A stretch of DNA of 64,000 nucleotides from Pseudomonas arsenicoxydans. GTDB taxonomy: Bacteria > Pseudomonadota > Gammaproteobacteria > Pseudomonadales > Pseudomonadaceae. The notes under the pieces were generated by a model. That model was not told the origin of the DNA. It was given only the letters and a program-made list of their open reading frames with translations, and searched no databases. Below are positions 1-41,771 of the stretch, piece by piece; within the stretch, counting starts at the first letter, position 1; each line of letters begins with the position of its first letter. The position numbers and the translations under genes were made by a program. The stretch is from the NCBI RefSeq assembly GCF_900103875.1, contig NZ_LT629705.1, forward strand, positions 4,163,001 to 4,227,000, given 5' to 3'.

Positions 1-832
1 TAATTCCCAGACGGGTCAGGGCCAGTTTCAATGCATCGGCCAGGTTGGCTTTGGTGACTACGCCTTGCAGGTCCAGGCCAAGGTGCACGATGGTCTGGGC
101 GATTTGTGGTCGCACGCCGCTGATGATGCAATCGGCACCCATCAGGCGAATGGCGGTCACGGTTTTGAGCAAATGCTGAGCCACCAGGGTGTCGACGGTC
201 GGCACGCCAGTGATGTCGATAATGGCGATTTCCGAACCGGTATCGACGATCCGCTGCAGCAAGGATTCCATGACCACTTGGGTACGTTGCGAATCGAGGG
301 TGCCGATCATCGGCAGCGCCAGCACGCCGTCCCAGAGCTTGACCACCGGGGTCGAGAGTTCCAGCAATTCTTCCTGCTGGCGCTTGATCACCGCTTCGCG
401 CGATTTCTGGAAGGTGCGGATGGTGTGCATGCCCAACGCGTCGACCAATTCGGAAACTTCCCAGAGCTGCTCGGCGAGCATGGCTGGATTGGCTTCGTAG
501 TGGCGTTGCAACAGACCGAACATCGGGCCTTTGAGCGAGAAAATGAAGCTGGCGGTCTGGTGCGAGTCCTGACCTGTCAGGGCGCGGCTGTGGGAGAGCT
601 TTTCGAGGAATTGACGAATGTCATCCCAGCCCGGCGCGTTGACGTTCGGGCCATTGCCGTTTTCCAGGCCGGCGATCAGCAGTTGCAGAAATTCCGACGT
701 CTGCTGTTTAAGGTCGTGTTCTTTCAAGTTGCGGGTAGCGCCAGTGGCTTCCTGGCTGGTCATCCAATCGCCAACCAGTTGTGTCTGGTTGCTTTTCATC
801 GCATCGAGAGTGCCGATATGCAGTGCTGCCAT
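1..832 (-). CDS. RsbR-type STAS stressosome protein (C-terminus outside window)
   Basis: Read directly on the minus strand: ATG at 832-830 is preceded by AGGAG at good spacing, and the frame stays open to base 1. The N-terminal ~150 residues are a helical RsbR-type sensor region. The C-terminal part is a STAS domain with the segments IGTLDSQRTQ and DITGVPTVDTLVAQ. These closely match B. subtilis RsbRA around its two phosphorylated threonines (GT-[IL]-D and VDT), and both threonines are present. In the known family, RsbR and RsbS form a stressosome that holds the RsbT kinase. Any rsbS/rsbT partner would lie left of the window and is not visible. The last residues are missing here. Confidence 0.85.
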   Translation of the reverse strand, partial: MAALHIGTLDAMKSNQTQLVGDWMTSQEATGATRNLKEHDLKQQTSEFLQLLIAGLENGNGPNVNAPGWDDIRQFLEKLSHSRALTGQDSHQTASFIFSLKGPMFGLLQRHYEANPAMLAEQLWEVSELVDALGMHTIRTFQKSREAVIKRQQEELLELSTPVVKLWDGVLALPMIGTLDSQRTQVVMESLLQRIVDTGSEIAIIDITGVPTVDTLVAQHLLKTVTAIRLMGADCIISGVRPQIAQTIVHLGLDLQGVVTKANLADALKLALTRLGI

Positions 833-1113
833 GTGTCTGAGCTCCTGAAAAAATTCTGTGCCGATTCCCCAAAAAAACACCGGCGTGAATCAATGACAAT
901 TGCCGTACGCAATAGTTAGCCGTGCGCGTGGATTATTTTATCCCCGCAACAGTTGCCGCTAACTCTAGTAGGTACCCACGTCCACGGCGATTTAATGACG
1001 ACTCTCTAGTCAGGCGCTGTTTTATTGGATGGAACCCCTGACGCTGTATGACTTCGAACTTTCAAGGCCTCGGTGTTTCGAGGTGCGGGCTTGCCTATAT
1101 GAGCGAGGTACGT

Positions 1114-1389
1114 ATGAAAGACGAAACGACACAACGACAGGATCAATCGGGTGCACCGATCGATCGCAATGACCCGGCGATTGATCCGCAAATGCCGGGC
1201 GACGAGGGAGCAGGTGCTCAACGTCAACAATCATCCACCGGTTCTGCGCAAAGCGCTGATGCGGCGGTCGATCAGAAAAACCTCCACGATGACAACGACA
1301 ACGAATTCAGCCCGGGTTTCAAACCCCATCCCGACCGGCCAAAGCCCAGTGATGAGACCGACGCCGACATCGATACCGATGGCGGCTAG
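1114..1389 (+). CDS. Small acidic, disordered hypothetical protein (91 aa)
   Basis: The frame is open from 1048, but ATG 1114 has GAGG 6 nt upstream and is the best start; ATG 1099 is the alternative. The product is very hydrophilic, rich in Asp, Gln, Pro and Ser, with no hydrophobic segment and an acidic end (DETDADIDTDGG). It is probably unstructured and cytoplasmic. I do not recognise a family. It is followed at once by a strong terminator shared with the convergent DUF4142 gene. Its setting among small stress-type proteins and an RsbR homologue suggests a general stress role, which is inference only. Confidence 0.65.
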   Translation: MKDETTQRQDQSGAPIDRNDPAIDPQMPGDEGAGAQRQQSSTGSAQSADAAVDQKNLHDDNDNEFSPGFKPHPDRPKPSDETDADIDTDGG

Positions 1390-1402
1390 TTCGTCCAGCC
1401 GT

Positions 1403-1436
1403 AAAAAAGGCCGCATCAATCGATGCGGCCTTTTTT
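1403..1436. terminator. Bidirectional rho-independent terminator
   Basis: GGCCGCATC / GATGCGGCC stem with a 4 nt AATC-type loop, flanked by AAAAAA on the left and TTTTTT on the right. It therefore works for the plus-strand gene ending at 1389 and the minus-strand gene ending at 1446. Confidence 0.9.
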
Positions 1437-1445
1437 ATGGACGTT

Positions 1446-1967
1446 TTATTTGCTGGGGTGAGCAGCCTGGAGTTTTTTCGCCATCTCCAAATGTTTTTCC
1501 AGCGCCGGCAACATCTTTTGCGCGAACCCTTTGAGTTCTGTGGCGCCCTTGACCTTATCGTCTGTCACGGTATCGGCTTCTTTTTTGAATCGCGCGATGG
1601 TTTCTTCGTGCGCTTTCACCTGATTGTTGGCGTAGGCGGCGTCGAACGATTCATCGCGCATATCGAGAATTTTTTCCTTGGCTTGCTTCACCAGCGTGGT
1701 GTCGTCCGGCACCTTGATGTCGTTCTTTTTCGCCAACGCCGCCAATTCTTCATTGGCCTTGGTGTGATCGGTGATCATCATGTTGGCGAATGCCTTGACG
1801 TCCGCCGATGAGCTTTTTTCCAGGGCCAGTTTGCTGGTTTCGACTTCTGCGATCCCGCCGGCCGCGGCGTCATCGACGAAGTCATTGGAGGTCGCGGCAA
1901 ACGCAACACCCATGCTGGAACTCAAGGCTACGGCCAAGGCAAGGTGGCGCAGGGTAAATCCGTCCAT
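1446..1967 (-). CDS. DUF4142 exported protein
   Basis: 173 aa. An N-terminal signal peptide (about residues 1-25, ending ...VAFA-ATS) is followed by a helical DUF4142 domain containing FVDDAAAGGIAEVETSKLA and the segment MMITDHTKANEEL with its conserved histidine. DUF4142 proteins are periplasmic or outer-membrane-associated ferritin-like four-helix proteins, often stress induced, with no settled biochemical activity. The gene ends at the shared terminator and is divergent from the YdcH-like gene at 2182. The family call is firm; the function is unknown. Confidence 0.85.
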   Translation of the reverse strand: MDGFTLRHLALAVALSSSMGVAFAATSNDFVDDAAAGGIAEVETSKLALEKSSSADVKAFANMMITDHTKANEELAALAKKNDIKVPDDTTLVKQAKEKILDMRDESFDAAYANNQVKAHEETIARFKKEADTVTDDKVKGATELKGFAQKMLPALEKHLEMAKKLQAAHPSK

Positions 1968-2181
1968 TGGTTATTCTCCACACAGTTTTGAAGACGATCC
2001 GCTGATCGTTATTCAATGGAGGTCGGCGCTCGGACAAAGGTTTTATCGCGTTTGCGACAGGACGACGAACGGACACCGCTGGTCTGATAGACGGTCGACA
2101 GAACACGGTAACCGAGGCCATTCTGATAGTTGGTAAACGCAATAAATCGCGTTTGCTGCCGATCAATAACGGAGGTGTTCC

Positions 2182-2424
2182 ATGCCGGTACCACACGACC
2201 TTTATCAGGACCTGAAACTTTCAAAGGAAGATATCCAGCAAAAACGCTCCAAGGATCCAGTACTGAATTCACTGATCGACAAGTATTCGCAAGCGGACGC
2301 CGAGGTAGTCAAGGCTGAAACCGCAAAATCAGATGCGCCCAGCGATGACGTATTGAAAAAGCTCAAGGAGGCGCGCGTGCAGGTCAAGGACAAGATCGTC
2401 AAACAACTCCAGTCTTCTTCCTGA
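2182..2424 (+). CDS. YdcH-like (DUF465-type) small protein
   Basis: 80 aa, preceded by AACGGAGGTGTTCC, a strong ribosome binding site. The protein is a charged helical hairpin. It has an N-terminal segment ending ...PVLNSLIDKYSQADAEVVKAE, a short D/S-rich turn, and a second helix DVLKKLKEARVQVKDKIVKQL. This is the layout of YdcH/DUF465 proteins (a short coiled-coil hairpin with a conserved L-K--R---KD--). The biochemical role of that family is not established. It sits in the stretch of small stress-type genes. Confidence 0.65.
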   Translation: MPVPHDLYQDLKLSKEDIQQKRSKDPVLNSLIDKYSQADAEVVKAETAKSDAPSDDVLKKLKEARVQVKDKIVKQLQSSS

Positions 2425-2535
2425 CCCGCGACGGCAAGCCACCGACGACCGGTGACCGAAAAATTGGAACGGGAGTAAATACCGGCACCTCGAAAGATCA
2501 GAGTCCGACCTTTTCGACTCCCTGCGAGGTGCCTT

Positions 2536-2778
2536 ATGCCCGATCCAAAATTCCCCAGTGAAGAGCAGGGTGGATACGACCCGATTCCCACCCGTCCCGA
2601 GCCTCTGAGCCCCGGCCGCACGGCGGTCAACCCCGAAGACGAACCCGGCATCGACGAGCTGCCTGCCAATGAAGGCGTGCGCCCCCTGAATGAGGACGAC
2701 ACCACCGCGATGGACCCTGAGCGGGTGCTGGAAGAAACGGAAAACGCCGTGCGAGATAAAGAGAGCGATCCGCGGTAA
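2536..2778 (+). CDS. Small Pro/Glu-rich hypothetical protein (80 aa)
   Basis: ATG 2536 follows TGCGAGGTGCCTT, a good ribosome binding site. The product is hydrophilic and likely disordered, rich in Pro, Glu and Asp, without membrane or signal segments. I do not recognise a domain. Codon use is ordinary for the GC-rich neighbours. It closes the plus-strand run of small genes and is followed by a GC-rich hairpin at 2794. Function unknown. Confidence 0.6.
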   Translation: MPDPKFPSEEQGGYDPIPTRPEPLSPGRTAVNPEDEPGIDELPANEGVRPLNEDDTTAMDPERVLEETENAVRDKESDPR

Positions 2779-2793
2779 TTCAGCTCACATCCC

Positions 2794-2815
2794 CTGTGGG
2801 AGCTCACTCCCACAG
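2794..2815 (+). terminator. Hairpin after the 80-aa gene, resembling half a REP
   Basis: CTGTGGGAG-CTCA-CTCCCACAG followed by TTTGATT. A perfect 9 bp stem. The sequence resembles the GTGGGAG core of the REP elements elsewhere in the window, so it may be a REP remnant that acts as a transcript end between convergent genes. Confidence 0.55.
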
Positions 2816-2826
2816 TTTGATTGAGG

Positions 2827-3918
2827 TTACTTCTGCAGGGCAGTGCTTAACGGCAATCGCGCCATGTTGTTGGCCTTCAGAGACCCCAGATACAGCCAGT
2901 CCCCGTACTCGCGCACCGTGGTAATCGGCGAGTAATTGCCATTGTTCGCATCCTGCAAATTGGCGATGACCTTGCCATCGACGTCCAGCCCCAGCGCAAA
3001 CGCGCGTTTCTCCACCGGCTTGGGCAGCAGCATCAACGCCCGCACGATCATCTTGCGTACAAAGGGGTGTTGCGCCGTGGCGTCGAGCAACGCACTACGC
3101 GGTGCATAGAGCGCCACCCAGAACCGGTCGCGACCGTTGAACGCGAGGTTGTCCGGCAGCCCCGGCAAATTGTCGATGAACAGGTCATGGGTGCCGGCTT
3201 TCGGTCCGCTCAGCCAATAACGGCTGATGCGGTAGGCACCGGTTTCGTTGACCAGCACAAAGCTGTCATCCGGCCCCAGGGTCACGCCGTTGGCAAACTC
3301 CAGCTTATCGAGGAGGACCGTGGTTTTTCCGGACTGAAAGTCATAGCGCAACAACCGACCGTCACCGCCATGCTCGATGATCGCCTCGCCATCCTTGCCC
3401 AGGCCCCAACGACTGGAAGCGTCGCTGAAATAGGCGTAATGCCCCGATTTATCGATGACCACGTCGTCGGTAAAGCCGAAGGGTACGCCGCCAGCCTCTG
3501 TGGTCAACGCCGACAATCGGCCATGAGCATCCAGCGACAGCAAGCCTTTGACGCCGTCGGCAATCACCAATAACCCACTGGGGTGCCGCGCCATGCCCAA
3601 AGGCCGGCCGCCGGTAACGGCCAGAATCTGAGTGTCCTTGCCGTCGAGGCTGGTACGAATCACTCGTCCGTTGTGCAGTCCGGTGATCAGCACGTTTTCT
3701 TCCAGCAACAGCGCCTCGGGTCCTTCAATGCCCGCAGGGCCGACACGCTCCGCGCCTTTGAGGCGTTGATTGTCGGCATACACGCCGACGGTGAGAGAGG
3801 GCGCCGGTGCCGGAGTCCAGGCTACAGGCCGGACTTTGGTCGGGAACAACAGTAAAAAGACGCCAAGGGCAATGATCAATAACAACAGTAGATTGCTAAA
3901 CCTGAAGGCTCTTCTCAC
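2827..3918 (-). CDS. SMP-30 / strictosidine-synthase-like beta-propeller protein, membrane anchored
   Basis: 363 aa. Residues about 9-26 form an N-terminal membrane anchor (LLLLLIIALGVFLLLFP). The rest is a six-bladed propeller with SMP-30/strictosidine synthase-like signatures: GPEALL, RPLGMARHPSG, GFTDDVVIDKSGHYAYFSDAS, EFANGVTLGPDD and GLPDNLAFNGRDRFWVAL. Family members are lactonases or esterases, and the substrate here cannot be told. Its start overlaps the end of the upstream fatty acid hydroxylase gene by 4 bp (ATGA), so the two are translationally coupled and probably act on related lipophilic compounds (inference). Confidence 0.8.
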   Translation of the reverse strand: MRRAFRFSNLLLLLIIALGVFLLLFPTKVRPVAWTPAPAPSLTVGVYADNQRLKGAERVGPAGIEGPEALLLEENVLITGLHNGRVIRTSLDGKDTQILAVTGGRPLGMARHPSGLLVIADGVKGLLSLDAHGRLSALTTEAGGVPFGFTDDVVIDKSGHYAYFSDASSRWGLGKDGEAIIEHGGDGRLLRYDFQSGKTTVLLDKLEFANGVTLGPDDSFVLVNETGAYRISRYWLSGPKAGTHDLFIDNLPGLPDNLAFNGRDRFWVALYAPRSALLDATAQHPFVRKMIVRALMLLPKPVEKRAFALGLDVDGKVIANLQDANNGNYSPITTVREYGDWLYLGSLKANNMARLPLSTALQK

Positions 3919-5069
3919 GCGGTGGCTCCTGCCGGGTTCAAGTGTTTTTGCGCCATGTCCCGCAGCGCCAGCATCGATGCCGAGGATTCGCGCTCGATGC
4001 GCCGCTTGAGCAGCAGTCGATTGGCGATACGCATCGCCAGTCCGGCGAACTGATAGTCCAGAGTGCGGATAAACCGGGTGTGATCGCCCTCAGCCTCGCA
4101 CTCGTAAGTCACCACCAGCGACAGCCCGTGATCGCCCCGCGCCCAGGCGCTCCAGCGCCGTCCGGGCAGGTATTCGTTGACCTCCCAACTCAAGTGGCCG
4201 TCACGCCCGCCGGCGCGGATGTCTTCTTCGAACCGCGCGCCGGCATGCAAGGGGCCACTTTGCCCCTCGACCTTGAGGGAGGACGGATGCCACTCCGGCC
4301 AACGGGTCACGGTGCTGGCGTAGGCGAGCACATCCATTGGATTGCCGGCGATAGCGATCTGGTGCTGCATGCGGGTCATGGCCGTTCTCGTCAGGGGCTG
4401 AGTGTCGTGCTCCGGCTCCCAATACAGGGTGCCGAACAGGTAATCCATCAGCGGAAACACGATATTGAAATTGCGTTCCTGCATCAGCTCGCGACGGTGA
4501 TGCAATTCATGCAGGCGACGCATCTGGCGAATCCACGGCAGCCGTGTGACCGGGTTGCTCGGTGGCAGGTGCTCGCAGGCATGAAACACCTCATAGGTCA
4601 GGTATCCGAGCACCAGGCAGCCAGCCGACAATCCGGCGACGTTGCTATCGAAGCGCCCCATCAGCCACCAGAGGGGCAGGGTGATGACGACGGTGTGCAG
4701 CACGATCAGCCAGGCTGGAAACAGAATCACCCGCCAGTCCCGGGCGCTGTCGTAGGTCATGTGGCCGGGGGCAAAAAAACTGTGGTGGTCGCCTGCATGG
4801 CGGGCGTAGAACATCCGCGCGAAGCTCTTTTTGTGATGCCCCAGATGCCGATGCACCACGTACACGCCGAAGTTGAAGAACAGCAGCGTCAGCGGCACCG
4901 CCAGCCATTCCAGCGGCTGGACTTGATGCACGGTGCTCCAGAATCCGCCGATGGCCAGTAAGCCGAACAGCAACACGAAAGCGCCGTGCAGCCAAGGGTT
5001 GTAGCGCGGATGAATGGCGGCTCGATAGCGGTCACGGAATGCCTGGGTGGTCTGCCTCACTGCGCTCAC
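3915..5069 (-). CDS. Fatty acid hydroxylase superfamily membrane protein fused to an SRPBCC domain
   Basis: 384 aa. Residues about 1-220 carry several membrane helices and the histidine boxes of the di-iron hydroxylase/desaturase superfamily: HRHLGHH, HAGDHH, HACEH and HELHHRR. From about residue 230 a soluble SRPBCC-type (START/polyketide cyclase-like) ligand-binding domain follows, with VTRWPEWHPSSLKVEG and GARFEEDI. Family knowledge suggests hydroxylation of a lipid or sterol-like substrate, with the SRPBCC part perhaps holding it. The start is GTG 5069; an internal GTG at 5060 after AGGTG is an alternative. An inverted repeat, GGTTAT(N4)ATAACC at 5073-5088, lies just upstream and could be an operator. 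Confidence 0.8.
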   Translation of the reverse strand: MSAVRQTTQAFRDRYRAAIHPRYNPWLHGAFVLLFGLLAIGGFWSTVHQVQPLEWLAVPLTLLFFNFGVYVVHRHLGHHKKSFARMFYARHAGDHHSFFAPGHMTYDSARDWRVILFPAWLIVLHTVVITLPLWWLMGRFDSNVAGLSAGCLVLGYLTYEVFHACEHLPPSNPVTRLPWIRQMRRLHELHHRRELMQERNFNIVFPLMDYLFGTLYWEPEHDTQPLTRTAMTRMQHQIAIAGNPMDVLAYASTVTRWPEWHPSSLKVEGQSGPLHAGARFEEDIRAGGRDGHLSWEVNEYLPGRRWSAWARGDHGLSLVVTYECEAEGDHTRFIRTLDYQFAGLAMRIANRLLLKRRIERESSASMLALRDMAQKHLNPAGATA

Positions 5070-5157
5070 CTGTGGTTATTGTTATAACCGCAGATTAGCT
5101 GATCTGCCCGTCGAGGCTGGAACAACCTCAAGGACACAAGCGCCATGATCCGGTATG

Positions 5158-6021
5158 TCAGGTCAGCGGATTCCAGCGCTGGGACCAGTCGTCGTCGGTC
5201 TTGATGACTTCACGCAACAAATCGAAGGCTCGTTGCAGGGTCGCCGAGTCGCGATCACGGGAATAGACCAGGTAGGTCGGGTAGCTGAATTCGGGCGCCT
5301 TGGGCACGGGCTCCAGCACGCCGCTTTCCAGGTAACTCTGGACCACGCGCGTGCGAAAGTAGCCGCTGCCGCCGTTTTCCAGAATGTACTGCAGAGCGAG
5401 TGGGCCGAGGTTGAAGCTCAAGGCAGCCTTGGCTTTTTCCGGCAGGGCTGCATCGTGCTGGCGGCGGAAGTCCGGGCCCCAGTCAATGTACACGTAAGGA
5501 TCGGGACGCCCGGTGAGGCGAACGAGGATGAGTTTTTCTTCGAGGATCTGCTCGACTTGCAGGCGCGGCCAGTACTCTGGCTGATAGACCAGCGCTGCGT
5601 CCAACACTCCCAGTTCCAGTTGCCGCAACAGGGTTTCGCCATCGCGGATTTCCATGCGCAGGGCGTGGCTGGGGATCTTCTCGCGCAGTTCGCCGGCCCA
5701 ACTGAGCATCAGTGGGTTGCACAGGCTGACTTCACCGCCGATGTGCAACACGTCGCGGTAGCCTTCTGGCAATGGCAGATCCCGCCGCGCGGCTTCCCAG
5801 GTCTGGACCAGTTGGTTGGCGTATACCACAAAGGCTTCGCCGTTGGGCGTCAGGCGCGCGCCGGCGCGGTTGCGCACAAACAGTGTGCTGCCGAGCTGGC
5901 TTTCGAGTTTCTGCACGCGGGCGGTGATTGCGGTCTGGGTGACGTGGAGTTTTTCTGCCGCGGCGGCGAGGCTGCCGTGGCGGACGATTTCCAGAAAGGT
6001 GCGCGCGAGATCGATGTCCAT
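5158..6021 (-). CDS. LysR-family transcriptional regulator
   Basis: 287 aa from ATG 6021 (MDIDLARTFLEIV); an in-frame extension to 6069 is unlikely because LysR proteins begin at this helix. The N-terminal winged HTH covers about residues 2-60 (GSLAAAAEKLHVTQTAITARVQKLESQLG), followed by the effector-binding domain. No divergent target gene lies next to it: upstream is the 6.1-6.4 kb inverted repeat and then a same-strand amidohydrolase. The target is therefore unclear; the hydroxylase gene downstream on the same strand is a candidate. The family call is secure. Confidence 0.88.
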   Translation of the reverse strand: MDIDLARTFLEIVRHGSLAAAAEKLHVTQTAITARVQKLESQLGSTLFVRNRAGARLTPNGEAFVVYANQLVQTWEAARRDLPLPEGYRDVLHIGGEVSLCNPLMLSWAGELREKIPSHALRMEIRDGETLLRQLELGVLDAALVYQPEYWPRLQVEQILEEKLILVRLTGRPDPYVYIDWGPDFRRQHDAALPEKAKAALSFNLGPLALQYILENGGSGYFRTRVVQSYLESGVLEPVPKAPEFSYPTYLVYSRDRDSATLQRAFDLLREVIKTDDDWSQRWNPLT

Positions 6022-23961: not shown

Positions 23962-27672
<3,711 letters not shown>

Positions 27673-27826
27673 TTGGACTACTCGGAAAGACCATGACGAA
27701 GGGACGCGATAATAGCAAACCTGTGCGGTTTTGGAGCATGTCCCGGTTTTGCATGAATATCGTTCATGTTGGTGCGGGTGCCGGACCGGTAGAATTCCGG
27801 CGTTTTTCACGATCAGGACCAGGGAC

Positions 27827-30124
27827 ATGTCGTATCGCGTCATCACCAGCATTATTTTGCTGCTATTAAGCTGGGACGCGACTGCGCAAGGTCCGGCGAT
27901 TTCTACGGCTCTTTCCTATACCCGCGACATCCAACCGATCTTCACCGAAAAGTGCGTGGCCTGCCATGCCTGCTACGACTCCGCCTGTCAGCTCAATCTG
28001 GGCAGCGGCGAAGGGGCGGCCCGTGGCGCGACCAAGGTCACTGTCTATGATGGCGAGCGCAGTCAGGCTGCCGCGCCGACCCGCCTGTTTTACGATGCGT
28101 TTGGCAAACGCGCCTGGCAGCAAAAGGGCTTTTATTCGGTGCTCGACGCCCAAGGCAGTCAGGCGGCGTTGATGGCGCGGATGCTTGAGTTGGGCCATAA
28201 AACCCCGCTGCAACCCAACGCCAGGTTGCCTGAAGAGATCGTCCTGGGCCTTAACCGGGAAAACAGCTGCGCCATGCCGGCCGAATTCGACGGCTATGCC
28301 GGTACACATCCTAAAGAAGGCATGCCGCTGGCGGTCACCGGCCTGACCGATCAGCAGTACCAGACGTTGCAACGCTGGCTGGCCTCCGGTGCGCCAATCG
28401 ATGAACAGGGCCTGGTGCCGAGTGCGAACGAGGCCTTGCAGGTGGTGCAGTGGGAAAACCTGCTCAATTCGCCAGGCGCCCGGGAAAGTCTGGTGGGGCG
28501 CTGGTTGTTCGAGCATTGGTTTCTCGCGCATCTGTACTTCAAGGACGGTGAGCCTGGGCACTTCTTCCAGTGGGTGCGTTCGCGCACTCCGACCGGCCAG
28601 CCGATCGACCTGATCAACACCCGTCGCCCGAACGACGACCCCGGCACCCAAGTGTATTACCGCCTATGGCCGGTGCAGGGCGTGATCGTGCTCAAGACCC
28701 ACATCACCTATCCGCTGAGCGCGGCGAAGATGGCGCGGATCAAAAGCCTGTTTTACAACGGCACTTGGCAGGTCAATGCCTTGCCGGGTTATGGCCCGGA
28801 GCGTCGAGCCAATCCGTTCACCACCTTTGAAGCGATTCCGGCGCAGGCGCGTTATCAGTTCATGCTCGATAACGCCGAATACTTTGTGCGCACCTTCATT
28901 CGCGGCCCGGTCTGCCGCGGGCAAATCGCCACGGATGTGATTCGCGACAACTTCTGGGCGCTGTTCCAGGCGCCGGAGCACGATCTGTACATCACCGACC
29001 CGAACTACCGAGGCCAGGCCACGCCATTGCTGGCCATGCCGGGCCAGAACGACGACGTCGGCAGTGTCCTGAGCCTGTGGCACGACTACCGCGACAAACG
29101 CAACGAGTACGAGGCACTGCGCCGGGATAATTACGCCGATGCGCCGGCACCGAGCTGGTCGACCTTGTGGGCCGGCAACGACAATGCGCTGCTGAGTATC
29201 TTTCGGCACTTCGACAGTGCGTCGGTGAACAAGGGCCTGATCGGCGATGTGCCGCAAACCATCTGGCTGTTCGACTTTCCACTGCTGGAACGCACCTACT
29301 ATCAACTGGCGGTCAACTTCGATGTGTTCGGCAATGTGTCCCATCAAGCGCAAACGCGGCTGTATTTCGACCTCATCCGCAACGGTGCCGAGCAGAATTT
29401 CCTGCGCCTGATGCCGGCCGACTCGCGAACCGCGTACCTGGACGATTGGTACCAGAACAGCGGCAGACTCAAGATGTGGCTCGATTACGAGGCCATCGAC
29501 AACGACAAGCCGACGGCACTCAAACTCGACGAGAAAGACCCGAAACGCGACTTTGCGATGCAACTGCTGGCTCGTTACGGCGAACTCAACGCCAAGCCTG
29601 ATCCGATCAACCGGTGCGACGGCGCTTACTGCTCACGGCCGAACATCGACCCGGCGCTGCAAAATGCCGAACAAGCCTTGAGTCGCCTGGTTTCGCGCCC
29701 GGCGGCGGGTCTGAAGGTCATCGACCAGCTGCCGGAAGCGACGATGCTGCGCATTGAAACCGCGAGCGGCAAACGTGAGATGTACAGCCTGTTGCGCAAC
29801 CGCGCCCACAGCAATGTGGCGTTCCTGCTCGGCGAATCACTGCGCTATCAGCCAGGCCTCGACACCCTGACCATTTTCCCGGGCGTGCTCAGCAGCTACC
29901 CGAACTTCATGTTCAATATCCCGGCGGAGCAGGTGCCGGCGTTCGTGGACGCGATGGAAAATGCCAGGGACGCGAGCAGCTTCGAGAAAATCGTCGAGCG
30001 TTGGGGCATTCGCCGCAGTCATCCGCAGTTCTGGTTTTACTTCCATGACCTGAGTCTCTACATCCACGAGACCGACCCGGTGGAAGAGGGCGTGCTCGAC
30101 ATGAACCGCTACGAGAATCTTTGA
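27827..30124 (+). CDS. cti: Periplasmic fatty acid cis/trans isomerase
   Basis: 765 aa from ATG 27827 with CAGGGAC upstream. Signal peptide at residues 1-21 ([14 protein letters not shown]). The mature N-terminus carries a cytochrome c-type haem motif, CVACH, in a cysteine-rich stretch ([12 protein letters not shown]), as known for Cti. Cti converts cis to trans unsaturated acyl chains in membrane phospholipids during solvent or heat stress, with no energy cost. The length (~766 aa) matches the family. It is divergent from metH. Confidence 0.95.
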
Positions 30125-34245: not shown

Positions 34246-34383
34246 GGCGCATCCCTCTGGTCTTGTCAGTGGGTGAATAGAGCGCATCGAAGACCCCTGC
34301 GAACGGGCACGCAGAGGTTCAAACAGCGCCCGCCCACCGCGGGTTTGTTATTCAGTGATCGTAATGGTCACTTTGTGTTGCGG

Positions 34384-34578
34384 GCCGGTCTCCGGGCTCA
34401 CGAGGGGTCAAGGCTTGCGCCTGAACCTGCAAGCATCACCTTCCCATGCCGAACTGCTGGCACAGTGGATCTGACGCTTCGCTCGCTTACCGTTGCGGGG
34501 GCAGCACCGGACTGACATGGCTTTGAGTAAAGCACATGATTCACCGGTTTCCCGTTTCACCCTGTGAAGGGCACCCGT
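34384..34578 (-). promoter_or_regulatory. Cobalamin riboswitch controlling cbtB-cbtA-cobE-cobM
   Basis: Read 5' to 3' on the minus strand: GGTGCCC near 34575, GGGAAACCGGTG, then the conserved core GCTGCCCCCGCAACGG (34489-34506 region), CCACTGTGCC (B12 box-like), CATGGGAAGGTG, and the closing GAGCCCGGAGACCGGCC (34384-34400). The order and spacing are those of the cobalamin element. High cobalamin is expected to shut the operon off. Confidence 0.9.
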
Positions 34579-34642
34579 AACAAGGCGTGTAGGAGAGCAT
34601 GGGCGGGGCGGGGGAGTCAATTGGCATGGGTTCTCGTTTGGT

Positions 34643-34754: not shown

Positions 34755-34807
34755 TCAGGCAGGTCACGATTGACCCGCCCCCACACGATGCGTAGCCTTG
34801 CGCATTC

Positions 34808-34995
34808 GAGGTTCTTCGGCGTTTGCCGAAGCTAAGAAGGGAACGCGGTCGATGCCGCGGCTGCCCCCGCAACTGTGAACGGTGATGTTCGCTGCCACGC
34901 CACTGCAAACCCTGCACAACGGGTTCGCGGGAAGGCGCAGCGAATGCCAGTCTGCCATTGGCACACCGTCAGCCAGGAGACCTGCCTCGACACAG
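34808..34995 (+). promoter_or_regulatory. Cobalamin riboswitch controlling cobW-cobN-chelatase
   Basis: Plus strand: GAGGTTCTTCGG start, AGAAGGGAACGCGGT, core GGCTGCCCCCGCAACTG (34858-34874), B12 box GCCACGCCACTGC (34893-34905), GCGGGAAGGCG, and closing GTCAGCCAGGAGACCTGCC. It ends about 110 nt before ATG 35105 of cobW. The region 34246-35104 holds no gene, only this element, its divergent twin and one repeat. Confidence 0.93.
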
Positions 34996-35104
34996 ATTCT
35001 CACTTTCAACCGGGCGGGGTGATCCGGTGGCGAACTCTTCCGCGCGCGCATCCGTCGCAGCGATTGTCGTCCCGTATGCCCGCCACCTTGCCAAAGGGCA
35101 TCCG

Positions 35105-36166
35105 ATGAAAACACTGGCCAAACTTCCCGTCACCATCGTTACCGGCTTCCTCGGCTCGGGCAAAACCACCTTGCTGCGGCACATGCTCGACAACGCTCAG
35201 GGCCGCCGCATTGCGGTGATCGTCAACGAATTCGGCGAGCTGGGCATCGACGGCGAAATCCTCAAGCAGTGTTCCATCGGCTGCACTGAAGAAGAAGCCA
35301 ACGGCCGCGTTTATGAGTTGGCCAACGGCTGCCTGTGCTGCACCGTCCAGGAAGAGTTCTTCCCGGTGATGCGCGAACTGGTGGCGCGTCGCGGCGACCT
35401 CGACCACATCCTCATCGAAACCTCGGGTCTGGCACTGCCAAAGCCTCTGGTTCAAGCCTTCCAGTGGCCGGAAATCCGCAGCGCCTGCACCGTTGACGCG
35501 GTGATTACCGTGGTCGACAGCCCGGCCGTTGCTGCCGGCACCTTCGCCGCCTTCCCGGACCAGGTCGATGCCCAACGCAAACTCGACCCGAACCTGGATC
35601 ACGAATCGCCATTGCACGAGCTGTTCGCCGACCAACTGGCCAGCGCCGACCTGGTGATCCTCAACAAGGCCGACCTGATCAGCCCTGAAGACCTGGCCCG
35701 GGTGCGTCTGGAAGTCGCCGAAGAACTGCCGCCAGCCGTCAAAGTCATCGAAGCCAGCAGCGGTCGCGTGCCACTGGACGTGCTGATCGGCCTTGGCGCC
35801 GGCTCCGAAGAACACATCGACAGCCGTCACAGTCATCACGATCACCACCATGAAGGCGAAGACGATCACGACCACGATGCGTTCGATTCGATCTCCATCG
35901 AACTGCCGCAAGCCGACGAAAGCCTGCTGCTGGACGCGCTGACCCAGCTGGTGGTCCAGCACGGCATTCTGCGCGTCAAAGGTTTCGCTGCCATCCCGAA
36001 CAAACCGATGCGCCTGCTGATCCAGGGCGTGGGCACGCGTTTCGACAAGCATTTCGACCGTCAGTGGGGCGCCGCTGAAGCGCGCACCACGCGTCTGGTG
36101 CTGATCGGCCAGGAACTCGACGCCGTCCTGCTTGAAGCGCAATTGCGCGCCGCGCTCAGCGTGTAA
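35105..36166 (+). CDS. cobW: Cobalamin biosynthesis GTPase CobW
   Basis: 353 aa from ATG 35105 (MKTLAKLPVTIVTG); the frame is open further upstream but that part is riboswitch. G3E-family P-loop GTPase: Walker A GFLGSGKTT, the metal-binding C-x-C-C in NGCLCCTVQ, NKADL, and a histidine-rich loop (HSHHDHHHEGEDDHDHD). The C-terminal CobW domain follows. It is thought to deliver cobalt to the CobNST chelatase. First gene after the riboswitch, 3 bp before cobN. Confidence 0.95.
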   Translation: MKTLAKLPVTIVTGFLGSGKTTLLRHMLDNAQGRRIAVIVNEFGELGIDGEILKQCSIGCTEEEANGRVYELANGCLCCTVQEEFFPVMRELVARRGDLDHILIETSGLALPKPLVQAFQWPEIRSACTVDAVITVVDSPAVAAGTFAAFPDQVDAQRKLDPNLDHESPLHELFADQLASADLVILNKADLISPEDLARVRLEVAEELPPAVKVIEASSGRVPLDVLIGLGAGSEEHIDSRHSHHDHHHEGEDDHDHDAFDSISIELPQADESLLLDALTQLVVQHGILRVKGFAAIPNKPMRLLIQGVGTRFDKHFDRQWGAAEARTTRLVLIGQELDAVLLEAQLRAALSV

Positions 36167-36169
36167 GCC

Positions 36170-39100
36170 ATGCACCTGCTCAGGACCCAGCCCGGCGGTT
36201 TCGTGTCGGATGACAACATCGCCGACCTTGGACAAACCCCCGCCGAGCTGGTGATCCTGTGCAGCGGCGATTCCAGCCTCGCGCTGCTCGCCGAAGCAGC
36301 GCAGCAACTGCCGGACGATTACCCCAGCGTGCGCCTGGCCAACCCGATGCAGGTGCAGAATCACGCGTCGGTCGATTTGTACGTTGACGAAGTGCTGCGC
36401 CACGCCAAGGTGATTCTGATTTCACTGCACGGTGGCATCGCCTATTGGCGCTACGGCGTCGAACGGCTGGTGCAGCTCGCGGAGCAGGGTGTGCAGCTGA
36501 TTCTGGTGCCCGGCGATGATCGCCCGGACCCGGAACTCAGCGACCTGAGCACCGTTCCCGCGCAAGACCGCGATCGTCTCTGGCAGTTTTTGCGTCAGGG
36601 CGGCATGAACAACGCTATGGATTTTTTCCGCTGCCTGGCCAATCGCTGGCTGGCGCGCGATTACGTGTGGGCCGAGCCGCAAACCCTGCCGCGCACAGCG
36701 ATTTACCACCCACAAAAAAGCCCCGCCGACCTTGAAGATTGGCAAGCCGAGTGGCGAGCCGATCAGCCAGTGGCAGCGGTGCTGTTTTACCGCTCGCATT
36801 TACAGGCAGCGAACACCGCTTTTATCGATGTGTTCTGCCAGCGTTTGCAGGCAGCGGGGTTGAACCCGTTGCCCATTGCCGTGGCCAGTTTGAAAGAACC
36901 CGGCTGCCTGACGGTGGTCGAGGACCTGCTGGACCACGTCGAGGCAGGGGTGATTCTCAACACCACCGGCTTCGCCCAGTCCAGCCCCGAAGCCCCGCAC
37001 CTGCGACCGTTTCGCCGCAACATCCCGGTGATTCAAGCGATCTGCGCTCAGGACAACGAGCCGGGTTGGCGTGCCAGTGAACAAGGCCTCGGTCCGCGTG
37101 ACCTGGCCATGCACATCGCGCTGCCGGAGCTGGATGGTCGGATCATCAGCCGGCCGATCAGCTTCAAGGACCTGGCGTGGCGCAGTGAGCGCAGTCAGTC
37201 GGACGTGGTCTGCTATCGCGCGCAGCCTGAACGCATGGATTTTGTCGCCGAACTGGCGCGGCGCTGGATCGATCTGGCACGGCTGCCAAACAGTGAAAAA
37301 CGCGTCGCGCTGATCCTTGCCAACTACCCGACCCGCGATGGGCGCATCGGCAATGGCGTCGGTCTCGACACCCCGGCCGCCGCGCTGAACATCCTGCGCG
37401 CGCTGCATCAGGAAGGTTATCCGCTGCCGGCCGACTTGCCGGACAGCGGCACCGCGCTGATCCAGCAATTGCTCGGCGGCGTCAGCAACGACCTCGATAC
37501 CCTCGACCAACGTCCGTGTCATCAAAGCCTGGCGCTGGACGATTACAACCGGATGTTCGACGCCTTGCCCGAGACCAATCGGCAAGCGGTGCTGGAGCGC
37601 TGGGGTTCGCCCGACAACGACCCGATGTTCCGTGGCGGGCGGATGATGATCGCCGGACTGCGTTTGGGCCTGACCTTCGTCGGCATCCAGCCGGCGCGCG
37701 GTTATCAGGTTGATCCGAGCGCGGTGTACCACGACCCGGACCTGGTGCCACCCCACGGCTACCTGGCGTTCTATTTCTGGCTGCGCAATACCTACGGCGC
37801 GCATGGCGTGATTCACGTCGGCAAGCACGGCAACCTCGAATGGCTGCCGGGCAAAGGCGTCGGGCTGTCGGAAAACTGCTGGCCGGACGCGTTGCTCGGG
37901 CCACTGCCGAATATCTATCCGTTTATCGTCAATGACCCGGGTGAGGGCGCCCAGGCCAAGCGCCGCACACAAGCGGTGATCATCGATCACTTGATGCCAC
38001 CGCTGACCCGCGCTGAAACCTACGGTCCGCTGCGCAACCTCGAACTGCTGGCCGACGAGTATTACGAAGCGCAACTGCTCGATCCGCGCCGTGCCCGGGA
38101 ATTGCAGCGCGACATCCTGCAACTGGTGCGCGACACCCACATCGATCGCGAACTGCAACTGGACGAGAAGCTCGACAGCGATGCCGATGCAGCGATCTGG
38201 CTGCCGCGTCTGGACACATACTTATGTGACTTGAAAGAGTCGCAGATCCGCGATGGCCTGCACATTTTTGGCGAATCGCCGACCGGGCGGTTGCGCATCG
38301 ATACATTGCTGGCGTTGCTGCGCATTCCCCGTGGCGATGGCCGTGGCGCGCAATCAAGTTTGTTGCGGGCGTTGGCCAAGGACTTCGCGCTGGGCTTCGA
38401 TCCGCTGGATTGTGCGCTGGCCGAGCCCTGGACCGGACCGCGCCCGATGGAACTGCAAACCCTCAGTGATGAAGCCTGGCGTACCGCCGGCGATACCCGT
38501 GAACGCCTTGAGCTGTTCGCCGCTCAACTGATCTCGCAGACATTGGACCAACCTCAAGCCAAATCGGGTCCCTGTGAAAGCGACGTCAGCGCCATCATCG
38601 ACAGCCTGCGCGACGTCGTCGCCCCGCGCCTGGACGCTTGCGGCCCGGCGGAAATGCGCGGCTTGCTGGATGCCCTGAGCGGTCGTTTCGTCCCGGCCGG
38701 TCCCAGTGGCGCACCGAGTCGCGGTCGACTGGATGTGTTGCCGACCGGACGCAATTTCTATTCGGTGGACGTGCGCAACCTGCCGACCACCACCGCGTGG
38801 CGTATCGGTTTCCAGTCCGCCAACCTGATTCTCGAGCGACATTTGCAAGACCACGGCGATCACTTGCGCCAGCTCGGCCTGTCAGTCTGGGGCACCGCGA
38901 CCATGCGCACCGGCGGTGACGACATTGCCCAGGCGATGGCGCTGATGGGTGTACGTCCGGTCTGGGCTACGGGCAGCCAGCGAGTCGATGATTTCGAAAT
39001 CCTGCCATTGAGCTTGCTTGATCGCCCGCGCGTGGACGTGACCTTGCGCGTCTCGGGATTCTTTCGCGATGCCTTTGCCAACCTGATTCGTCTGTTCGAC

Positions 39101-39940
39101 GCAGCGGTGCAAGCGGTCGCCGCCCTCGATGAGCCAGACGACCTCAACCCGCTGGCCGCCAAAGTGCGTGCCGAGCGTGAAGCGTTGATGCAATCAGGTC
39201 TGGATGAAGAGGCGGCCAAACGGCAGGCCGGTTGGCGCATCTTCGGCGCCAAGCCCGGTGCTTATGGCGCAGGCGTGCAGGGCGCCATCGACGGTCGGTT
39301 GTGGCAAAGCCGCGAGGATCTGGCCGAGGTTTACCTCAATTGGGGCGGTTACGCTTACGGCGGCTCCGATGAAGGCACCGCCGCCCGGACACAATTCGCC
39401 CAGCGCCTGAGTCAGGTTCAGGCCGTGCTGCAGAACCAGGACAATCGCGAGCACGACTTGCTCGATTCCAACGACTATTACCAGTTCCAGGGTGGCATGC
39501 TCGCCGCCGTGGAAAGCCTCAGCGGCGAAACAGCGGCCAGTTATCACGGCGATCACAGCCAGCCGGACTTGCCGAAGATTCGCACGCTCAAAGAAGAGTT
39601 GAACCGGGTGATTCGCTCCCGTGCTGCCAACCCCAAGTGGATCGATGGCGTGAAGCGTCACGGCTACAAAGGGGCCTTTGAACTGGCGGCGACGGTCGAT
39701 AACCTGTTCGCCTTCGATGCGACGACGCAACTGATCGACGATCATCAATATGCGTTGCTGGCGGATGCCTATTTGCTCGATCCGGCGACTCGGGACTTTG
39801 TGCGTGAACATAATCCGGCTGCATTGCGCGACATGACCGAGCGCATGCTCGAGGCGCAGCAGCGGGGGATGTGGAAGGCGCCGGGCGAGTACCGCGAGGC
39901 GCTGGAGAATTTGTTGCTGGATATAGAAGAAGACAGCTGA
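36170..39940 (+). CDS. cobN: Cobaltochelatase large subunit CobN
   Basis: 1256 aa, full length for the CobN/BchH family. Typical segments are ILISLHGGIAYWRYG, AVLFYRSHLQAANTAFID, HVGKHGNLEWLPGKGVGLS, NDPGEGAQAKRRTQAVIIDHLMPPL, GGDDIAQAMALMGVRPVW and the C-terminal LNWGGYAYGG. It binds the hydrogenobyrinic acid a,c-diamide ring and inserts cobalt with ATP-driven CobS/T-like or ChlI/D-like partners. The chelatase ATPase gene downstream is the obvious partner, since no cobS or cobT is in view. Confidence 0.95.
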   Translation: MHLLRTQPGGFVSDDNIADLGQTPAELVILCSGDSSLALLAEAAQQLPDDYPSVRLANPMQVQNHASVDLYVDEVLRHAKVILISLHGGIAYWRYGVERLVQLAEQGVQLILVPGDDRPDPELSDLSTVPAQDRDRLWQFLRQGGMNNAMDFFRCLANRWLARDYVWAEPQTLPRTAIYHPQKSPADLEDWQAEWRADQPVAAVLFYRSHLQAANTAFIDVFCQRLQAAGLNPLPIAVASLKEPGCLTVVEDLLDHVEAGVILNTTGFAQSSPEAPHLRPFRRNIPVIQAICAQDNEPGWRASEQGLGPRDLAMHIALPELDGRIISRPISFKDLAWRSERSQSDVVCYRAQPERMDFVAELARRWIDLARLPNSEKRVALILANYPTRDGRIGNGVGLDTPAAALNILRALHQEGYPLPADLPDSGTALIQQLLGGVSNDLDTLDQRPCHQSLALDDYNRMFDALPETNRQAVLERWGSPDNDPMFRGGRMMIAGLRLGLTFVGIQPARGYQVDPSAVYHDPDLVPPHGYLAFYFWLRNTYGAHGVIHVGKHGNLEWLPGKGVGLSENCWPDALLGPLPNIYPFIVNDPGEGAQAKRRTQAVIIDHLMPPLTRAETYGPLRNLELLADEYYEAQLLDPRRARELQRDILQLVRDTHIDRELQLDEKLDSDADAAIWLPRLDTYLCDLKESQIRDGLHIFGESPTGRLRIDTLLALLRIPRGDGRGAQSSLLRALAKDFALGFDPLDCALAEPWTGPRPMELQTLSDEAWRTAGDTRERLELFAAQLISQTLDQPQAKSGPCESDVSAIIDSLRDVVAPRLDACGPAEMRGLLDALSGRFVPAGPSGAPSRGRLDVLPTGRNFYSVDVRNLPTTTAWRIGFQSANLILERHLQDHGDHLRQLGLSVWGTATMRTGGDDIAQAMALMGVRPVWATGSQRVDDFEILPLSLLDRPRVDVTLRVSGFFRDAFANLIRLFDAAVQAVAALDEPDDLNPLAAKVRAEREALMQSGLDEEAAKRQAGWRIFGAKPGAYGAGVQGAIDGRLWQSREDLAEVYLNWGGYAYGGSDEGTAARTQFAQRLSQVQAVLQNQDNREHDLLDSNDYYQFQGGMLAAVESLSGETAASYHGDHSQPDLPKIRTLKEELNRVIRSRAANPKWIDGVKRHGYKGAFELAATVDNLFAFDATTQLIDDHQYALLADAYLLDPATRDFVREHNPAALRDMTERMLEAQQRGMWKAPGEYREALENLLLDIEEDS

Positions 39941-39950
39941 CGCGCTTGAA

Positions 39951-40045
39951 CCTGTGGGAGCGGGCTTGCCCGCGAAGAGGCCGTGTCAGTCGCCATCCAT
40001 GTGAATGAAATATCGCTATCGCGGGCAAGCCCGCTCCCACAGGGG
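39951..40045. repeat. REP doublet (inverted pair) between cobN and chelatase gene
   Basis: CCTGTGGGAGCGGGCTTGCCCGC at the left and GCGGGCAAGCCCGCTCCCACAGG at the right, about 50 bp apart. It sits inside the presumed operon, so it may form an mRNA structure between cobN and the ATPase gene. Confidence 0.9.
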
Positions 40046-40098: not shown

Positions 40099-41106
40099 AT
40101 GATGACCGACACCCCGCATTTCCCGCTCTGTGCCGTGGTCGGCGCCGATGACTTGAAGCTCGCCTTGTGCCTGACCGCCATCGACCCGAAAATCGGCGGC
40201 GTGCTGATCGAGGGGCCGCGCGGCATGGCCAAATCGACCCTGGCTCGCGGCCTCGCGGACCTGCTCGCCAGCGGCCAATTTGTCACCTTGCCCCTGGGCG
40301 CCACCGAAGAACGGCTGGTCGGCACCCTCGACCTCGACGCCGCCTTGAGCGAAGGACGGGCGCAATTTTCCCCCGGCGTATTGGCCAAGGCTGACGGCGG
40401 CGTGTTGTACGTCGATGAAGTCAATTTGCTGCCCGATCACCTCGTGGACCTGTTGCTCGATGTGGCCGCCAGCGGCACCAACCTGATCGAACGCGATGGC
40501 ATTTCCCATCGGCATTCGGCGAAATTCGTCCTGATCGGCACCATGAACCCGGAAGAGGGTGAACTACGTCCACAATTGCTCGACCGTTTCGGCTTGAACG
40601 TCGCCCTAGGCGGCCACACCGCACCTGCAGAACGTGGCCAGATCATCCGTCGACGGCTGGATTTCGACAGCGATCCGCAAGCGTTCTGTGCGCAGTGGGA
40701 AAGCCAGCAGCAATCGCTGCGCGAACGTTGCCAGACGGCGCGTGACACGCTGATGAGCATCCCGCTGGACGATGAGACGCTGGCGCAGATTACCGAGCGC
40801 TGCTTTGCCGCCGGCGTCGATGGTTTGCGTGCCGATCTGGTCTGGTTGCGCGCTGCCCGGGCCCATGCCGCATGGCGCGGGGCACACACCATCGCCGAAG
40901 AAGATATCGACGCCGTCGCCGAGTTTGCCTTGCGGCATCGCCGTCGTGAGCATTCACCTCCGGCACCGCAAAACAATCAGCCTCCCTCCGCACAAGCGTC
41001 CAACCCCAGCCCCAGCGAAGGCCAGGGCCAATGGGGCGAAATGCCCGCCCAGGCGCTGCCGGTCGGCGCGCGACGTGAAGTGCCGAGCTGGCCAAAAAAG
41101 CCCTAG
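40099..41106 (+). CDS. ChlI/BchI-like chelatase AAA+ ATPase with ChlD-type linker (zero-frame product)
   Basis: 335 aa (ATG ATG start). AAA+ core: Walker A-like GPRGMAKST, Walker B GVLYVDEVNLL, sensor-type GTMNPEEGELRPQLLDRFG. Residues ~290-335 are a Pro/Gln/Ser-rich linker (HSPPAPQNNQPPSAQ...) like the one joining the ATPase and VWA parts of ChlD/BchD. The frame stops at TAG 41104 directly after A AAA AAG (41094-41100), a -1 frameshift heptamer. The zero-frame product would be a ChlI-like subunit; the shifted product (~557 aa) a ChlD-like subunit. Together with CobN they would form a three-part cobalt chelatase. Confidence 0.9.
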   Translation: MMTDTPHFPLCAVVGADDLKLALCLTAIDPKIGGVLIEGPRGMAKSTLARGLADLLASGQFVTLPLGATEERLVGTLDLDAALSEGRAQFSPGVLAKADGGVLYVDEVNLLPDHLVDLLLDVAASGTNLIERDGISHRHSAKFVLIGTMNPEEGELRPQLLDRFGLNVALGGHTAPAERGQIIRRRLDFDSDPQAFCAQWESQQQSLRERCQTARDTLMSIPLDDETLAQITERCFAAGVDGLRADLVWLRAARAHAAWRGAHTIAEEDIDAVAEFALRHRRREHSPPAPQNNQPPSAQASNPSPSEGQGQWGEMPAQALPVGARREVPSWPKKP

Positions 41107-41141
41107 GCATTCGCCCTCGATCTGACGCGGGGGCGAATGCC
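41094..41141 (+). promoter_or_regulatory. Predicted -1 programmed ribosomal frameshift signal
   Basis: Slippery heptamer A AAA AAG at 41094-41100, in the correct phase for the ATPase frame (CCA AAA AAG CCC TAG). Then a 5 nt spacer (41101-41105) and an 11 bp perfect stem: GGCATTCGCCC (41106-41116) pairs with GGGCGAATGCC (41131-41141) across a 14 nt loop. The zero-frame TAG begins 3 nt after the heptamer. These are the elements of the E. coli dnaX type of -1 shift. Confidence 0.85.
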
Positions 41142-41771
41142 AGACCCCGCGCAGGACGGCTGGCCAATGGTAAGCAGGGCAAGCGTCACGCCGCGCGCAG
41201 CGGCACGATCGATTGGCCTGGCACCTTGCTCAAGGGGCGTCCGCGTCAGCATAAAGATCTGCTGTTCCATCAACGCACGCGGTTCCCCCATGAACTGTGG
41301 TTGGTGATCGTCGACGCCTCGGCCTCGACCCGGCGCCATCAAGCGTTGAGCGATGCCAAGGGCCTGCTCGCGCAACTGTTCGACGACGCTTACCGCCAGC
41401 GCGCACGTCTGGCGTTGCTCACCGCCAGTGGCAACGTACCGACATGGCAGGTGCAAGGCTTGAAAGCATCGACGAGCCTGCGCGCCTGGCTGGATGGCTT
41501 GGGCGCGGGCGGTGGTACGCCGTTGCTGGCGGCGCTGGGGGAGGCGGGGAATTGGCTGGCGACACGGCAGAAGCGCTTCCCGGCAGAGCAGCAAAGGCTG
41601 GTGCTGGTGACCGATGGACGGGTGAAAGAATGGCCCGTGCTGTCGGTGTTGGAGTGTCCGGGGCTGCTGATTGATATTGAGCGAGGGCCGATCCGGCTCG
41701 GTCGGGCGAAACAGCTGGCGGCGGAGCTGGAAGCGGATTATCGGCACATCGATGAACTGATCTCAGTCTGA
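41100..41771 (+). CDS. VWA (ChlD/BchD C-terminal) part reached by -1 frameshift
   Basis: 223 codons in the -1 frame. It starts with a basic stretch (KRHAARSGTIDWPGTLLKG) like the ChlD region before the VWA domain, then a VWA domain with the MIDAS motif D-A-S-A-S (VIVDASASTRR), GGGTPLLAAL and VLVTDGRVKEW. The frame has no ATG anywhere. The only near-start codon, TTG 41226, has no ribosome binding site and would cut off the conserved basic stretch. So the part is very probably made only as a fusion with the ATPase at 40099. A frameshift mutation is the alternative, but the intact MIDAS and open frame argue against decay. Confidence 0.85.
   Translation, partial: ALGIRPRSDAGANARPRAGRLANGKQGKRHAARSGTIDWPGTLLKGRPRQHKDLLFHQRTRFPHELWLVIVDASASTRRHQALSDAKGLLAQLFDDAYRQRARLALLTASGNVPTWQVQGLKASTSLRAWLDGLGAGGGTPLLAALGEAGNWLATRQKRFPAEQQRLVLVTDGRVKEWPVLSVLECPGLLIDIERGPIRLGRAKQLAAELEADYRHIDELISV

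Follow-up and report, generated by a model that had tools for sequence, protein, structure and literature searches.

A candidate −1 programmed frameshift linking the ATPase and VWA parts of a cobaltochelatase gene in Pseudomonas

The fs-chlD locus and its surroundings

The gene analyzed here lies in a stretch of 64,000 nucleotides of Pseudomonas arsenicoxydans DNA, termed the window, and consists of two reading frames on the forward strand (Table 1). The zero frame encodes a ChlI-like ATPase containing the sequence GPRGMAKST, which we take to be the Walker A motif, while the −1 frame encodes a basic linker and a VWA domain containing DASAS, presumably the MIDAS motif (DxSxS). A first-pass annotation, made from the letters of the window, had proposed that these parts are joined by −1 programmed frameshifting. 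Its reading of the frames was largely borne out: the VWA frame is exactly −1 relative to the ATPase frame and, as read from the sequence, is open from 41079 to 41768 following a stop codon at 41076, and the joined product of 557 amino acids (aa) has the order ATPase, basic linker and VWA with DASAS. The ATPase frame ends with the codons CCA AAA AAG CCC TAG; the TAG had been described as standing right after the heptamer in the correct phase, and this was correct for the phase but not for the adjacency, as one CCC codon intervenes. A further claim, that the VWA frame lacks an ATG, held for the usable open stretch (41079 to 41768), in which none was present, but not for the whole frame, whose sole ATG, at 41031, is useless because the stop at 41076 comes after it.

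The A_AAA_AAG heptamer is followed, after a spacer of 5 nt, by a predicted hairpin with the stem GGCATTCGCCC / GGGCGAATGCC. The perfect stem of 11 bp already noted at this distance was found and extends to 14 pairs with the inclusion of one U-G pair; the first base of the stem is the last base of the TAG codon. A fold energy of −29.3 kcal/mol was predicted for positions 41101 to 41145. Counting both strands, AAAAAAG is found at 11 places in the window, one of them the site itself. Upstream of the heptamer, no Shine-Dalgarno-like stimulator was evident by eye.

The gene is the third of a cobW-cobN-chlD series preceded by a cobalamin riboswitch, with cobN directly upstream. The start of cobW was placed at the ATG at 35105 from the sequence, while the mechanical open reading frame (ORF) call begins at a TTG at 34958. 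A second, divergent cobalamin riboswitch points towards cbtA, a cobalt transporter gene, and cobM. This setting of cobN, cobW and riboswitches indicates a role in B12 rather than chlorophyll synthesis. The metH gene for the B12-dependent methionine synthase (23962 to 27852, reverse strand) was also present in this window of B12 genes. A long inverted repeat, REP/REPIN-like in appearance, occupies positions 39951 to 40043 between cobN and chlD, and its 20-nt core recurs, on either strand, near 54.8, 55.9 and 62.3 kb.

Table 1. Features of the fs-chlD locus and its upstream region (positions in the window)
Feature	Position	Strand	Evidence
Second cobalamin riboswitch, towards cbtA and cobM	34366..34593	−	
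Cobalamin riboswitch ahead of cobW-cobN-chlD	34792..35003	+	RF00174, 103.6 bits
cobW	35105..36166	+	TIGR02475, 533 bits, above cut-off
cobN, large cobaltochelatase subunit	36170..39940	+	TIGR02257, 1747 bits, above cut-off
ATPase (ChlI-like) ORF, zero frame; short product, 335 aa	40099..41106	+	ATG 40099, TAG 41104-41106
GPRGMAKST (presumed Walker A motif)	40213..40239	+	translation
Slippery heptamer A_AAA_AAG, zero-frame phase	41094..41100	+	sequence
−1 frame (basic linker, VWA domain), contributing 223 aa downstream of the slip	41100..41768	+	stop 41769-41771
Spacer CCCTA, 5 nt	41101..41105	+	sequence
Hairpin 5′ arm, 14 pairs with the 3′ arm, first 11 perfect	41106..41119	+	fold, covariation
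Hairpin 3′ arm	41128..41141	+	fold, covariation
DASAS (presumed MIDAS motif, DxSxS)	41313..41327	+	translation

Profile searches placed both parts in the chelatase families. The ATPase part scored 414 bits against TIGR02442 (putative cobaltochelatase) and 338 bits against TIGR02030 (ChlI), each under its cut-off, and its relatives in the PDB were ChlI (6l8d and 8osf) and the 38-kDa subunit of Mg-chelatase (1g8p). The VWA part matched the VWA region of TIGR02442 (68 bits), Pfam VWA_2 (2.3e-9) and, in the PDB, the 60-kDa subunit of Mg-chelatase (2x31, 6.9e-8). For the joined protein of 557 aa, TIGR02442 was by far the best family (477.8 bits, cut-off of 779.45 not reached); the score against the Mg-chelatase ChlD/BchD family, TIGR02031, was 290.3 bits (cut-off of 499.55 not reached), and the ChlI cut-off was likewise not reached.

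The genome of this strain was then considered as a whole. CobS and CobT profiles had no match at an E value of ≤0.001, and a CobNST-type cobaltochelatase was rejected on this basis. The ChlI profile matched this gene and three others weakly (≤27.5 bits), so that no second strong ChlI-like gene was found with it. With cobN present and no cobS, cobT or separate chlI, the genome fits stage 8 fs-chlD (aerobic cobalt chelatase). The operon context, the riboswitch and these whole-genome family searches agree with the first-pass proposal of a cobalt chelatase without CobS and CobT encoded beside cobN. Two tRNA-Lys genes, both with the anticodon UUU, were found by a pattern search, which might overlook a tRNA-Lys(CUU) whose T-arm differs.

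Conservation of the split and constraint on the signal

A scan of named genomes was performed in which the best 80 of 590 relatives were kept, giving 81 loci with the P. arsenicoxydans copy. Both parts were present in 76 of these; a VWA match was lacking in four loci cut by contig ends (L046, L062, L063 and L066) and in one masked locus (L073). Among the 76 loci, the frame relation was −1 in 67 and in frame in 9, the latter all from genera other than Pseudomonas. The −1 set comprised 64 Pseudomonas-like loci, two of them labelled otherwise (L047, Paucimonas; L057, Pantoea), and three Caballeronia loci (L074, L076 and L078), which have a run of seven A and a different downstream sequence in the same gene. 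Every Pseudomonas-like locus with both parts (64/64) was thus split at −1. Where cobN ended at most 1.5 kb upstream, 61 of 62 loci were −1, while six of the other 14 were −1, all six with cobN 1.8 to 2.7 kb upstream; this pattern largely follows phylogeny.

With further genus genomes added, an in-phase A_AAA_AAG was present in all 113 Pseudomonas-like −1 loci, a count in which some genomes figure twice, as the genome sets overlap. The ATPase was detected at an E value of ≤1e-60 in 280 of 298 genus genomes. A 20-nt junction pattern, TGGNNAAAAAAGNNNTRRGC, matched 258 of the 298 and its reversed control 6, the matches not being systematically placed at the gene and some listed ones lying elsewhere. 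The pattern was missing from the gene in 24 genus genomes that have the ATPase (no match anywhere in 23, a match elsewhere in G084). The −1 A_AAA_AAG arrangement was nevertheless retained in 19 of the 24, flanked by different letters; one locus was cut, and four (L115, L122, L135 and L136) had an altered shift site. A sequencing error is likely for L135, because the ATPase frame is also broken elsewhere in its genome. In L116 and L129, the TAG beside the heptamer is replaced by CAG, so that the short product would run on to a TGA within the hairpin loop; the heptamer and stem are retained. These counts indicated that conservation of the putative shift site is far beyond chance.

Two other departures were observed in the genus. 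In L128 (genome G176), cobN and the ATPase read as one frame of 1,582 codons (ORF 543 to 5288) with no separating stop, possibly due to an assembly error, and the usual −1 site follows the joined frame. Six genomes in which the ATPase was not detected at an E value of ≤1e-60 (G060, G082, G180, G185, G242 and G260) had a divergent CobN-like frame of about 1,400 to 1,490 codons that scored under the cut-off.

Comparison of the signal with synonymous drift among orthologues, as the first-pass annotation had suggested, was performed at the codon level with 92 Pseudomonas-like loci (those up to L111, without L070). Codons for Met and Trp were excluded, and a codon was counted as conserved when its residue was kept in at least 90% of the 92 loci. 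Of 213 such codons in the ATPase, only the last three, the CCA, AAA and AAG that carry the heptamer, were free of synonymous change. The Pro at CCA was kept in 86 of 92 loci and the Lys at AAA and at AAG in all 92, while two other conserved Lys sites were divided between AAA and AAG at ratios of 49 to 43 and 38 to 54. Among 93 conserved codons of the VWA part, the only invariant one was the GCG at position 12, a codon within the 3′ arm of the stem.

Covariation in the stem was analyzed with 57 of 65 distinct junctions, after removal of loci in reverse orientation and of Caballeronia. Eight junctions (L043, L044, L047, L049, L060, L064, L070 and L134) were left out because most of them differ in loop length or stem layout. 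Stem cells were paired in 94.6% of cases, compared with 34 to 53% when the partner was slid. The covariation score was reached by none of 500 shuffles; weaker measures, namely pairs with change on both sides and further pair types, were reached by 16 and 40 of 500, respectively. The slid control and two-sided change weigh more than these shuffles, because kinship alone can beat such shuffles without structure. One stem pair was UA in 26 junctions, CG in 21 and UG in 10. The mean fold energy of the junction was −28.3 kcal/mol (n = 115), compared with −16.0 kcal/mol (standard deviation, 4.7) for a control set of 960 50-mers drawn from these gene regions. Judged from these alignments, the predicted hairpin is under compensatory change in the genus.

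Proposed mechanism, alternatives and known systems

The proposal of −1 programmed frameshifting was supported by the conservation in the genus of heptamer, phase, spacer and stem, by the constraint on the heptamer codons and by the compensatory change in the stem. We consider it highly probable (roughly 0.9) that fs-chlD yields, by this mechanism, both a ChlI-like subunit of 335 aa and a ChlD-like subunit of 557 aa for the CobN cobaltochelatase. Ribosomes remaining in frame would stop at the TAG at 41104 and release the short ChlI/CobS-like ATPase subunit. A fraction of ribosomes would be paused by the hairpin (41106 to 41141) while AAA occupies the P site and AAG the A site, and would slip back by one base on A_AAA_AAG, both tRNA-Lys re-pairing with AAA. 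Reading in the −1 frame would then continue into the ATPase-linker-VWA protein, a medium subunit of the ChlD/CobT type. A single cistron would in this way supply both partners of CobN in a fixed ratio, and the three proteins would make up the cobaltochelatase of the aerobic B12 pathway. We infer slippage in vivo with its efficiency, the assembly of both products with CobN and a need for the short product. A frameshifted chlD would explain how pseudomonads can do without cobS and cobT and still have a cobaltochelatase, and why gene callers report two genes in place of one.

The frames could also be joined by transcriptional slippage, with RNA polymerase adding or dropping an A on the A-run to generate mixed mRNAs, but the run here is only six A, which is short for slippage of this type, and the conservation of the codon phase, of the following G and of a covarying downstream RNA hairpin fits ribosomes and not polymerase. 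We regard this explanation as very unlikely, even though longer A-runs are found in the same gene of other lineages, with A7 in Caballeronia and 7 to 11 A in the cassettes described in the available portion of Antonov et al. 2013 (PMC3711429), which cites n > 7 for transcriptional slippage. Little credence can likewise be given to a separate VWA protein made by internal or coupled initiation without any joined product. The earliest ATG, GTG or TTG within the open VWA stretch is a TTG at 41226, in frame ahead of the MIDAS motif, and at least one GTG, TTG or ATG precedes DxSxS in 92 of 92 loci. An ATG is present in just 10 of the 92, at scattered positions, and inspection of 41226 by eye revealed no ribosome-binding site. 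Separate initiation would moreover leave the frozen CCA-AAA-AAG unexplained, and the two parts form one ORF in 9 loci of other genera.

That the split merely reflects a sequencing error or a decayed gene is scarcely credible. Assembly errors may occur, as suggested by the four genus loci with altered sites and by the ATPase frame of L135, which is broken elsewhere too; yet the same split in every one of the 64 Pseudomonas-like loci that have both parts, the frozen heptamer codons and the presence of DxSxS in 92 of 92 loci mean that, at the level of sequence comparison, this reading is already refuted by conservation.

The first-pass annotation had judged the mechanism probably not to be new, and frameshifting in chlD is indeed already known from publications that name the genus Pseudomonas. 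A 2020 paper by Antonov in MBE is reportedly also devoted to fs-chlD and the magnesium chelatase frameshift cluster. In the text available of Antonov et al. 2013 (PMC3711429), this cluster comprises 23 genes with a −1 shift, with Pseudomonas among six genera, and the gene callers are stated to split its genes in two. Shifting in Escherichia coli was 63, 40 and 10% for cassettes of 11, 9 and 7 A, respectively, efficiency thus falling with the length of the A-run. The idea that one gene provides two subunits is set out by Kuznetsov et al. 2022 (PMC9227772), citing work from 2020. Excerpts of the review by Atkins et al. 2016 (PMC5009743) name Pseudomonas, describe A_AAA_AAR as being under purifying selection, print the hairpin of P. 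protegens and tie the shift of E. coli dnaX to a sole tRNA-Lys. Loss of aerobic B12 synthesis was reported for a cobN mutant of P. aeruginosa PAO1 (PMC5962746); the main text of that paper mentions neither cobS nor chlD and does not use the word chelatase.

Compared with what those sources present of the fs-chlD cluster (PMC3711429 and PMC9227772), the locus described here differs in nothing of kind. The cassettes measured in the available part of PMC3711429 have 7 to 11 A, while the A6G type of this locus is not among them. The P. protegens site printed in PMC5009743 is orthologous by its letters, a hairpin with a GGCATCCGCCCC/GGGGCGGATGCC core being common to both. The corresponding passage of the review considers the sequence of the structure not to be strongly conserved and suggests a triplex, whereas in the present comparison the stem appeared conserved in the genus with compensatory change. 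The likeness to E. coli dnaX, as outlined there, extends to A_AAA_AAG, the hairpin that follows it and the tRNA-Lys of the host, for which no anticodon other than UUU was found; shifting yields the shorter product of dnaX but the longer product of this gene. The genus-wide data form a clean set for measuring the action of the heptamer and stem.

Single-frame relatives and the need for the short product

A single in-frame ORF was present in 10 of the best 80 of 590 relatives, namely the nine with a VWA match and L073, in which the VWA is masked. CobN was matched in all 10 of these genomes, nine times over the cut-off and once as a contig-end fragment; in G300 the match was in two pieces. No second ATPase was detected in the 10 genomes at an E value of ≤1e-20. 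A search for CobS detected a strong CobS-like gene in five (390 to 552 bits, under the cut-off of 558.55), one of these genes having an internal TGA, but none in the other five. The expectation that a genome without the frameshift would have a separate small subunit therefore held in five of the 10 genomes and failed in five, which suggests that the enzyme may not depend on a separate small subunit. The five genomes with CobN and one in-frame ATPase-VWA gene but no small subunit detected were G298, G300, G301, G303 and G305 (loci L068, L071, L072, L075 and L079).

By their gene content, some organisms thus seem to make do with a single fused protein beside CobN, and what the short product supplies in Pseudomonas may be a subunit ratio or a means of control, not a missing part. 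In its strongest form, this alternative would hold that the short ATPase is not needed, that CobN and the long protein suffice and that the frameshift is a hairpin-tuned valve on the amount of chelatase or the ratio of its subunits, possibly acting via metal ions; we consider this unlikely. Under the preferred reading, in which frameshifting supplies two subunits to CobN, the in-frame relatives with CobN and no detected small subunit make the need for the short subunit directly testable.

A reversed, dnaX-like signal, by which a fused gene could itself give a short product, was sought in the stretch between ATPase and VWA of the 10 ORFs, one of which (L073) was masked. In-phase heptamers were detected in three of nine testable ORFs (L068, L071 and L079), compared with 2.9 expected by codon shuffling, and were therefore at chance level; this candidate was rejected. 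All three came from among the five genomes in which no small subunit was detected, a number too small to weigh. In Caballeronia, the frameshifted gene was accompanied in three of three genomes by a CobS-like gene scoring under the curated cut-off.
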